From: Trichocoleus sp. FACHB-46
GTDB taxonomy: Bacteria > Cyanobacteriota > Cyanobacteriia > FACHB-46
Length of the DNA: 64,000 bases
Direction: 5' to 3'
Assembly: GCF_014695385.1 (NCBI RefSeq)
Contig: NZ_JACJOD010000006.1
Coordinates: 496,001-560,000 of the forward strand
Below the pieces are notes generated by a model. The model was not told the origin of the DNA, did no database searches, and worked only from the letters and a program-made list of their open reading frames with translations. Positions within the stretch are counted from its first letter, which is position 1. The number at the start of each line of letters is the position of its first letter. Made by a program: the position numbers and the translations under genes. Positions 24,838 through 59,326 of this stretch are shown here, piece after piece.

Positions 24838-25686
24838 GTGAAAACAAAAGGACGCATTTGGTTAATTGGCGGCACACAAGAAAGTGCTCAATTAGCCGCT
24901 GCGATCGCTGAAGCTCAACTTGCTTGTACCGTCTCAGTCACCACAGAAATCGCCAAACAGCTCTATGTCTCCTCTATTGAGAGGGCAGAGAACTATGCAC
25001 CCTTGCGAGTTTGGGTCGGACGATTAACCTCAGAGACAGCCGCATTCTTCCTACAACAGCAAGAAATTGTGGCAGTGTTGGATGCCTCCCATCCCTATGC
25101 GGTAGAGATTTCACAACTTGCGATCGCCATCACCACCCAGTTAGGCATTCCCTATCTTCGGTTTGAGCGGCCAGATTGGAAGGATGAAGGAGGAGGAATG
25201 AAGGATGAAAGGGAAAAGGGACAGAAGAAGGGATTAGTTTTTCAGAGTTTTGCTGAACTTGTGGCGACGGATATTCTTCAGGGGCAGCGGGTGTTGTTGA
25301 TTGTGGGGTATCGACCTCTGGCCCTCTTTCAGCCTTGGCAAGATCGTGCCACCTTATTTGCTCGGCTCTTACCCTCCGTTACCGCCATTGAAGCCGCGAT
25401 CGCCGCAGGCTTTACTCCCGACCGCCTGTTCGCTATGCGTCCTCCCATCTCCCCCGACCTAGAGAAAGCGTTGTGGCAACATTGGCAAATCTCTGTAGTC
25501 GTGACCAAATCCTCTGGCATTGCTGGTGGAGAAGACGTAAAGCGACAAGTCGCTGCTGAATTAGGGATACCCTTAGTCGCGATTGCCCGTCCCCCAATCA
25601 CCTACCCACAACAAACCAGCAACCTGACCACAGCCCTAGCATTCTGCCAAGAGCACCTAAGCCCAGCAAATAAACCAAAAACTTAA
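24838..25686 (+). CDS. cobK: Cobalt-precorrin-6A reductase, carrying a repeat-derived insert
   Basis: Reduces (cobalt-)precorrin-6A with NADPH in cobalamin ring synthesis. Start GTG 24838. Family marks: N-terminal RIWLIGGTQESAQLA, DASHPYAVEIS (about residue 86), YLRFERP, VLLIVGYRPLA, TKSSGIAGGEDVKRQ and the C-terminal ARPPITYPQQTSN. Between LRFERPDW and the next conserved segment there is an 18-20 residue hydrophilic insert (from about residue 114; Lys/Glu/Gly-rich), encoded by GGATGAA-type heptad repeats. The frame stays open, so the enzyme may still work. No other cobalamin gene is adjacent. Confidence 0.85.
   Translation: MKTKGRIWLIGGTQESAQLAAAIAEAQLACTVSVTTEIAKQLYVSSIERAENYAPLRVWVGRLTSETAAFFLQQQEIVAVLDASHPYAVEISQLAIAITTQLGIPYLRFERPDWKDEGGGMKDEREKGQKKGLVFQSFAELVATDILQGQRVLLIVGYRPLALFQPWQDRATLFARLLPSVTAIEAAIAAGFTPDRLFAMRPPISPDLEKALWQHWQISVVVTKSSGIAGGEDVKRQVAAELGIPLVAIARPPITYPQQTSNLTTALAFCQEHLSPANKPKT
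25178..25233 (+). repeat. GGATGAA-type heptad repeat tract inside cobK
   Basis: Purine-only tract with two exact GGATGAA units (25182-25188 and 25203-25209) and degenerate units between and after them. It matches the short tandem repeats otherwise found between genes in this window (rbcL-rbcX spacer, downstream of the SDR gene). Confidence 0.6.
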
Positions 25687-25704: not shown

Positions 25705-25778
25705 TTTGGAGGAGGCTTGGAGGACGGTTGCGTCCTCCAACAAGGGGGTTTGGGGGATATCCCCCAAGGTTCGGATTT
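25705..25778 (+). repeat. Dispersed double-hairpin repeat, copy 1
   Basis: Starts TTTGGAGGAGG and ends TCGGATTT. Hairpin 1 is a perfect 10-bp stem with loop GTTG (25717-25740). Hairpin 2 is the palindrome TTGGGGGATATCCCCCAA (25750-25767). A second copy at 50745-50819 keeps both hairpins with different bases in the stems. Confidence 0.7.
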
Positions 25779-38927: not shown

Positions 38928-39107
38928 ATGCAAAACTCTACGAAAGTAACTCCTCCCACAATGGATGATCGCAATGCTTGGCGGGTCGGTTTTACGCCTC
39001 AAGCTGAGATTTGGAATGGTCGTCTTGCCATGTTGGGATTTGTGGCAGCCGCTTTAATTGAATTGGCTTCGGGGCAAGGATTTCTACATTTCTGGGGCTT
39101 GATGTAG
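38928..39107 (+). CDS. hli: High-light-inducible (HLIP/SCP) chlorophyll a/b-binding-like protein
   Basis: Single-helix thylakoid protein of 59 residues that binds chlorophyll and carotenoid and protects photosystem assembly intermediates under high light. The CAB motif is ExWNGRLAMLGF (in AEIWNGRLAMLGFVAAALIE), one membrane helix, ending FLHFWGL. The ATG at 38928 is used, with GAAGAGAAA upstream; a frame extended to TTG 38874 would overlap the HLR1-like promoter site. It is a close paralogue of the gene 190 bp downstream. Confidence 0.93.
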   Translation: MQNSTKVTPPTMDDRNAWRVGFTPQAEIWNGRLAMLGFVAAALIELASGQGFLHFWGLM

Positions 39108-39299: not shown

Positions 39300-39482
39300 A
39301 TGATGCAAGACATCAACAAGACCAACACTCCTGTCATGGACGATCGCAACGCTTGGCGTTTTGGTTTTACTCCCCAAGCCGAAATCTGGAATGGTCGCCT
39401 CGCAATGCTAGGCTTCCTAGCCGCTACTTTAATTGAGCTGTTTTCCAATGAAGGGTTTTTGCACTTTTGGGGCTTAGTGTAA
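39300..39482 (+). CDS. hli: High-light-inducible (HLIP/SCP) protein, second copy
   Basis: A 60-residue single-helix chlorophyll-binding protein. Its core (DDRNAW, FGFTPQAEIWNGRLAMLGF, then helix LAATLIELF and C-terminal FLHFWGL) is nearly identical to the preceding gene, so the two arose by tandem duplication. GGAGAGAAA precedes two consecutive ATG codons; either can start. It has its own HLR1 promoter and a strong terminator, so it is regulated as a separate unit. Confidence 0.93.
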   Translation: MMQDINKTNTPVMDDRNAWRFGFTPQAEIWNGRLAMLGFLAATLIELFSNEGFLHFWGLV

Positions 39483-49928: not shown

Positions 49929-50675
49929 ATGAGTAAAAGATTGGCAGGTAAAGTGGCTGTGGTGACGGGTGGCTCTAAAGGTTTGGGGCAAGCCTTTGCC
50001 AAGCGACTGGCCGAAGATGGAGCTGATGTCGCGATCGCCGCCACCTCACTCGCCACCGAGACCGAAGAAATAGTTAAAGCAACAGGACAACGGGCGATCG
50101 CGCAAATTTGTGACGTTACTGATCCTGAATCTGTCGCTGAGTTTGCAGCGGTAGTGCAAGCGCAACTGGGAAAATGCGACATTCTGGTCAACAACGCAGG
50201 CATTTATCCCTTTCATGCTTTTGATGAGATGAGCTTTGAAGATTGGCGCAAAGTGCTAGCTGTAAGCTTGGATGGCACATTCCTCATGTGCAAAGCCTTT
50301 ATTCCAGGCATGAAAGAGCGTCAGTTTGGCCGCATTATTAACCTCACTTCCACCGCTAATTGGCTAGTGATTCCCAACCTGGCTCACTACAACGCCGCCA
50401 AAATGGGTGTGATCGGCTTAACCAGAGCCTTAGCCACCGAAATGGGAGAATTTGGCATTACCGTCAACGCAGTTGCTCCAGGCTTAGTCCGCACAGGCAC
50501 CACAGAAGCAGGACCACAACTGCATATGTTTGACCCGATCGCCCAGATGCAAGCAATCAAACGAACTGCTGTCCCCGACGAGATCGTTGGTGCTGTCTCA
50601 TTTCTCGCCTGCCAGGATGCCGCCTTGATCACCGGACAAACCCTAGCGATCGATGGTGGCTTAGTGCGGTTGTGA
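49929..50675 (+). CDS. SDR family oxidoreductase
   Basis: Classical short-chain dehydrogenase of 248 residues. NAD(P) site TGGSKGLG, structural NNAG, active-site Ser in NLTSTANW and the YNAAK dyad are all present, and it ends TLAIDGGLVRL as in FabG-like proteins. The cofactor-specific residues after strand 2 (AATSL) favour NADPH weakly. The substrate cannot be read. It lies between ispD and a membrane protein gene. The downstream gap contains repeats. Confidence 0.88.
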   Translation: MSKRLAGKVAVVTGGSKGLGQAFAKRLAEDGADVAIAATSLATETEEIVKATGQRAIAQICDVTDPESVAEFAAVVQAQLGKCDILVNNAGIYPFHAFDEMSFEDWRKVLAVSLDGTFLMCKAFIPGMKERQFGRIINLTSTANWLVIPNLAHYNAAKMGVIGLTRALATEMGEFGITVNAVAPGLVRTGTTEAGPQLHMFDPIAQMQAIKRTAVPDEIVGAVSFLACQDAALITGQTLAIDGGLVRL

Positions 50676-50710: not shown

Positions 50711-50744
50711 GAAAAAAGACTCGAAACACTCACCGTCAGCTTCG

Positions 50745-50819
50745 TTTGGAGGGGGTCTGGGGGACGCAACCGTCCCTCAGCGGGAGTTTGAGGGCAGGTG
50801 CCCTCAAGGGATCGGATTT
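50745..50819 (+). repeat. Dispersed double-hairpin repeat, copy 2
   Basis: Starts TTTGGAGGGGG and ends TCGGATTT. Hairpin 1 spans 50757-50780 (stem with GGGACG / CGTCCC, loop CAAC, one G-U pair). Hairpin 2 spans 50788-50807 (TTGAGGGCA / TGCCCTCAA). Compared with copy 1 at 25705-25778 the stems differ but pairing is kept. Confidence 0.7.
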
Positions 50820-56773: not shown

Positions 56774-56816
56774 AAGGATGAAGGCAAACTTCATCCTTCA
56801 TCCCTCATCCTTCATC
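56774..56816 (+). repeat. Hairpin and tandem heptads in the rbcL-rbcX spacer
   Basis: AAGGATGAAG (56774-56783) and CTTCATCCTT (56789-56798) form a perfect 10-bp stem with a 5-nt loop. The descending arm continues into four tandem heptads CTTCATC, CTTCATC, CCTCATC, CTTCATC (56789-56816). It may slow transcription or protect the rbcL mRNA end, lowering rbcX and rbcS output relative to rbcL or setting their ratio. Confidence 0.75.
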
Positions 56817-59228: not shown

Positions 59229-59326
59229 CGACTCGGACCCACGCGGCCATAACGCCCAAATCTTGTCAGGACCGGAAGGTAGCAGCAATACGGGATGCTT
59301 ATAGCAGGCGTGGTCTCCGGGTCTCC
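59229..59326 (+). ncRNA. ffs: Signal recognition particle RNA (4.5S type)
   Basis: About 98 nt. The conserved apical domain GTCAGGACCGGAAGGTAGCA (from 59265), containing the GGAA tetraloop and the Ffh-binding internal loops, is diagnostic. The 5' part (GACTCGGACCCACGC) pairs with the 3' part (GCGTGGTCTCCGGGTC) to close the long hairpin. It partners with Ffh to target membrane proteins co-translationally. The ends are inferred from the outer stem and the -10 element and may be off by a few bases. Confidence 0.93.

Follow-up and report, generated by a model that had tools for sequence, protein, structure and literature searches.

Background and comparison with described elements

Potential intrastrand triplexes are numerous in cyanobacteria, and bacterial motifs of this type include G/C-rich versions in Nostoc, Anabaena and Microcystis (Holder et al. 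2015, PMC4666352). In these a single strand holds three stems joined by short turns that can form G·G-C and A·A-T triplets; they occur in high copy, have been linked to genome instability, and one E. coli motif was shown to form a triplex in vitro. REP/BIME elements, in contrast, are short intergenic palindromes with GTAG or CGTC tags, found in many copies near gene ends and associated with RAYT transposases (PMC3733652). Cyanobacteria further contain MITEs such as Nezha and other small dispersed non-coding repeats (cited in PMC3733652; considered here without a sequence comparison). At the RNA level, H-type pseudoknots with major-groove triplexes, such as that of telomerase RNA, have a loop 1 that crosses the deep groove of stem 2 and forms base triples of the U·A-U type.

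We examined a repeat from Trichocoleus sp. FACHB-46 (GCF_014695385.1), first seen in a 64,000-nucleotide stretch of contig NZ_JACJOD010000006.1 (positions 496,001 to 560,000, hereafter the window). Its predicted fold resembles the intrastrand triplex motifs in having three strands per unit compatible with G·G-C and A·A-T triplets. Like those motifs, which have been linked to genome instability, it is present in high copy, and its copies also lie at synteny breaks, although the control for this was biased. Holder et al. require three consecutive stems of 6-15 nt, loops of 1-6 nt and at most one mismatch, allowed at 7 nt or more. By reading, copy 1 of the window satisfies this in both units: unit 1 is GGAGGAGG/GGAGGACG/CGTCCTCC, with 8 nt and one mismatch, and unit 2 is AGGGGG/GGGGGA/TCCCCC, although most other copies fall short in unit 2, with only five triplets. 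It differs in having two triplex units in tandem, in the order purine-purine-pyrimidine (their TM-ECO is pyrimidine first), in a predicted pairing of the 5' lead with a loop that would make a pseudoknot, and in being supported by evolutionary covariation. Thus, while the kind of structure is already known, the knotted double triplex with covariation appears new, in that we found neither the tandem arrangement, the lock nor the covariation in the open-licence literature surveyed, nor such a family in the sections of PMC4666352 consulted. It shares with REP elements a short, intergenic, palindromic nature and many copies near gene ends, but is about 65-75 bp long with two different hairpins and third strands, and has no conserved GTAG/CGTC tag and no cognate RAYT that we could find. 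As for MITEs, no terminal inverted repeats or target-site duplications were seen at the empty sites, and the fold is constrained. It shares with the telomerase RNA pseudoknot the path of loop 1 through the deep groove, but here a purine-motif triplex, most likely in DNA, is predicted.

Identification and distribution of the repeat

The original prediction described two intergenic elements of 74-75 bp sharing their start, their end and two consecutive hairpins in which pairing is kept although bases differ. This observation holds, and the phenomenon is larger than described. Both copies are present on the forward strand, at 25705-25778 and 50745-50819, and on both strands they fold better than every one of 200 dinucleotide shuffles (z -3.3 to -5.5). 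Two details need correction. The loop difference between the copies, GTTG against CAAC, is not a pairing change but an inversion of the loop in copy 1, because both congeners have CAAC at the orthologous site. The stem-2 change in copy 2 is real but involves three positions rather than two, with GGGAG TTT GAGGG ... CCCTC where the congeners have GGGGG TTT GGGGG ... CCCCC.

A DNA search of the window's own genome (6.56 Mb, 99.98% complete) gave about 30 further places, and a covariance model gave 83 full-length copies, so that the absence of further copies, which had been set beforehand as a ground for rejecting the element, is excluded. The same model matches copy 1 at 25705-25769 (64 bits) and copy 2 at 50745-50809 (90 bits). 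Two species of the same genus have about 77 and 80 copies. In the class, 74 of 390 sampled genomes and 48 of 160 genera have matches at E <= 0.001. An exact pattern for unit 1, scanned over one genome for each of 84,980 bacterial and archaeal species, hit only cyanobacterial records. No plasmid copies were found. No Rfam family matches the element; the only Rfam match in the window is the bacterial small SRP RNA gene at 59230-59326 (RF00169, 61.7 bits).

A third strand and a predicted lock

The original prediction saw two hairpins and missed a third strand. Numbering by model positions 1-65, each hairpin is preceded by a purine tract that is the mirror image of the 5' strand of the stem: GGAGG[G/A]GG TCT GG[G/A]GGACG ... 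CGTCC[C/T] in unit 1, and GGG[G/A]G TTT G[G/A]GGGC ... GCCC[C/T]C in unit 2. In copy 1, the unit 1 third strand GGAGGAGG (25708-25715), a mirror of the stem GGAGGA, is followed by hairpin 1, TTGGAGGACG-GTTG-CGTCCTCCAA (25717-25740), the unit 2 third strand AGGGGG (25743-25748), a mirror of GGGGGA, and the turn TTT and hairpin 2, TTGGGGGAT/ATCCCCCAA (25749-25767), where the turn and the outermost T-A pairs overlap. In copy 2, the 5' lead TTG (50746-50748), which can pair with the loop CAA (50767-50769), is followed by the unit 1 third strand GGAGGGGG (50748-50755), hairpin 1, CTGGGGGACG-CAAC-CGTCCCTCAG (50757-50780), the unit 2 third strand GGGAG (50782-50786), a mirror of GAGGG, and hairpin 2, TTGAGGGC-AGGT-GCCCTCAA (50788-50807). 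Copy 2 also has a 5' extension at 50715-50744 (GACTCGAAACACTCACC...TTCG), which is shared by roughly 30-40 of the 83 copies.

Mutual information over 73 distinct copies, with no structure assumed, ranks first 2-25, then 10-16 and 9-17, above every Watson-Crick pair, the next being 17-32. The mirror pairs are nearly always G/G or A/A, that is, compatible with G·G-C or A·A-T triplets. In the mirror register 33 cells are changed in a coordinated way, against 0-3 in slid registers and a shuffle mean of 6.3 with a maximum of 14. The alternation of G16·T33 and A16-T33 drives much of the 10-16 signal, and the mirror test across families on distinct sequences is weaker, with 363 of 100,000 shuffles as good. 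Lead plus stems have 96.8% of cells paired, and at most 55% when slid.

Lead positions 2-4 pair with loop positions 23-25. Within the genome the variable pair is T-A or C-G, and across other families the combinations are TTG/CAA, CTG/CAG, TCG/CGA, GCG/CGC, GTG/CAC and CCG/CGG, with 27 of 33 cells paired; shuffling leads against loops reaches this score 31 times in 100,000. One family (represented by genome G019) lacks the lead-loop pairs. A clash of these pairs with the stem at position 21 looked like counter-evidence, but in families whose tract starts GCAGG, C5 can pair with G22, adding a fourth pair to the lead-loop helix where the stem loses pair 21-28.

Change at orthologous sites and the folded strand

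The congeners are 80-87% identical around the two window copies, both of which occupy the same sites there. Of the 83 sites, 39 are collinear with the 2.18 Mb examined of one congener (G001), at about 85% DNA identity, and 33-34 of these are occupied, indicating mostly vertical inheritance. Among 29 clean orthologous pairs, positions 10 and 16 changed three times each and always together (expected 0.31 joint changes), and positions 2 and 25 likewise changed together three times (expected 0.41). At one site (L058) the only two differences are at 10 and 16. Copies within a genome are related and may exchange sequence by gene conversion, so that events are fewer than cells; the triple change in copy 2, for instance, has the same hairpin-2 sequence as about ten sister copies.

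Leaving out the constant G16·T33, non-Watson-Crick cells on the GGAGG strand are G·T rather than A·C (49 against 22), pointing to this strand as the likely folded one. Loop inversions at orthologous sites, including that of copy 1, are DNA-level events and show that the hairpins act as hairpins at the level of DNA. In a relative (G035, L094, around 1501-1563), unit 2 reads GGGGG CTTG CCCCC AAA CCCCC: the inner part of the predicted triplex hairpin is inverted relative to its sister copy L075, so that the purine-purine-pyrimidine order now lies on the other strand.

Genomic context

Copy 1 begins 19 nt after the stop codon of the gene for the precorrin-6x reductase CbiJ/CobK (24838-25686, forward strand), and copy 2 begins 70 nt after that of a short-chain dehydrogenase gene (49929-50675, forward strand). 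Using simple ORF calls, the gene on the element's 3' side points at the element in 53 of 77 copies, with its stop codon a median of 26 nt away. Twenty-three copies lie between convergent and 7 between divergent genes, against about 10 and 26 expected by intergenic length in a congener. Five of the 83 copies overlap small predicted ORFs. No intrinsic terminator was called at either window copy, and T-tracts follow only 12 and 6 of the 83 copies by strand. No replication-strand polarity was visible, strands being mixed along G001, where GC skew is weak.

Element sites coincide with synteny breaks more often than control sites (14 of 52 against 2 of 45; Fisher p = 0.005), but as the controls came mostly from one collinear region, the window, the excess is only suggestive. 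Two breaks (L063 and L016) have copies in inverted orientation at both partner sites, as recombination between copies would leave. This is not a general explanation: both ends of a roughly 68-kb inversion between genome G000 and the congener G001 (L098:2255-2319 and L110:1550-1615) carry copies in direct orientation in G000, while neither site has a copy in G001.

Interpretation and alternative explanations

We favor, with moderate confidence, the view that this is an old, dispersed, non-coding DNA repeat whose GGAGG strand, when it becomes single-stranded, folds into two tandem triple-stranded hairpins. In this view, the purine tract of unit 1 at positions 6-11 would fold back into the major groove of the stem (15-20 with 29-34) as an antiparallel R·RY triplex, while the 5' lead (2-4 or 2-5) would pair with the loop (23-25 or 22-25), such that the whole is best read as an H-type pseudoknot whose loop 1 forms the triplex; unit 2 would be the same triplex hairpin without the lead-loop lock. 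The copy number, both layers of covariation, the coordinated change at orthologous sites, the wobble asymmetry, the loop inversions, the position just behind stop codons and the mostly vertical inheritance are established by the analysis. In contrast, triplex formation itself is predicted from covariation alone, and that the folded molecule is DNA is an inference, though a likely one. It is only a tentative inference that the element works in cis behind genes as a folded-DNA barrier that stops or stalls RNA polymerase or shields neighboring, especially convergent, genes from read-through, with no direct evidence for an effect on the polymerase. Cyanobacteria lack Rho, and most of the transcript ends mapped in Synechococcus elongatus are unexplained (PMC13289151), making such a barrier worth considering. 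The fullest form of this proposal, a naturally selected DNA pseudoknot built around a purine-motif triple helix, kept at fixed gene-end sites across many cyanobacterial families and acting as a roadblock or insulator for the polymerase in a phylum without Rho, remains speculative. Triplex DNA is widely proposed to matter in cells but is rarely backed by evolutionary evidence; here mirror positions and a lead-loop helix change together, at orthologous sites and across families, which is the kind of evidence used for structured RNAs. If confirmed, the repeat would be a natural, many-copy system for studying triplex DNA in vivo and a candidate for the unexplained transcript ends of cyanobacteria.

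The interpretation in the original prediction, of a MITE-like or REP-like element under selection for structure in RNA or single-stranded DNA and possibly mobilized by a RAYT-type transposase, is partly supported: a dispersed, structure-constrained repeat of broadly MITE/REP-like habit, with single-stranded DNA as the likely folded form, is upheld, but mobilization by a RAYT is not supported. The high copy number of short palindromic repeats at gene ends and the presence of RAYTs in congeners are compatible with it. However, a search with NF047646 gave no match in the window's genome, which seems to lack a RAYT despite its 83 copies, and the only Y1 (PF01797) loci there are IS200-like and carry no copy. 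No copy lies in any of four RAYT loci examined in other genomes, and the one examined in G001 (L303, about 1352-2105, 168-172 aa) is flanked by its own GGTGCGTTGCAACGCACC palindromes, some preceded by GTAG. The possible tag GGAG at positions 4-7 is GCAG in four families and lies several nt from the hairpin foot. Hence, this reading is very unlikely. It remains possible that the repeat is a non-autonomous mobile element whose fold is recognized in single-stranded DNA by an unidentified transposase, with its position at gene ends reflecting target choice or survival and no host function. The copies must once have spread by some unidentified copying process to unlinked intergenic sites, at least one clean empty site and one other element-free site occur in G001 (L057, L066), and the strand-specific fold is as in other elements handled as single strands. 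Nevertheless, the high occupancy of collinear sites suggests little recent movement, neither terminal inverted repeats nor target duplications were seen, IS200-type and RAYT loci carry no copy, and coordinated change continues at fixed sites.

An RNA-level element in the 3' untranslated region, stabilizing mRNA 3' ends or pausing or terminating transcription as REP hairpins do in E. coli, would fit the position behind stop codons, the strong hairpins on both strands as RNA, the lack of Rho in cyanobacteria and their mostly unexplained transcript ends (PMC13289151). This is doubtful, as the strand favored by wobble pairs is antisense to the abutting gene in 53 of 77 copies, a long antiparallel purine-motif triplex is a DNA rather than RNA structure, few T-tracts follow, and there is no terminator call at either window copy. 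It is also very unlikely that there is no selection on structure. Template switching in hairpin DNA explains loop inversions and can make compensatory stem changes without selection (PMC8794818), so that the stem-pairing argument alone is weak and such changes can mislead where hairpin DNA is prone to this process. However, it copies reverse complements and would not be expected to produce mirror-related changes (10-16, 9-17, 41-47) or the 3-nt lead-loop pairs, making these the stronger evidence. Finally, the four G-rich tracts on one strand raise the possibility of a G-quadruplex with incidental hairpins, but this too is very unlikely, as the C-rich arms are conserved and covary with the stems, and A replaces G in mirrored pairs within one unit rather than at the same level in all four tracts.

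Other repeats in the window

Purine-rich heptamer-like repeats (GATGAAGGAGGAGGAATGAAGGATGAA) occur at 25183-25209 and 56790-56816; the first lies inside the cbiJ reading frame and has dozens of matches, mostly at 80-97% identity, in two congeners. A 146-bp direct repeat at 74% identity, with copies at 38961-39106 and 39336-39481, 375 bp apart, lies in a stretch without long ORFs.
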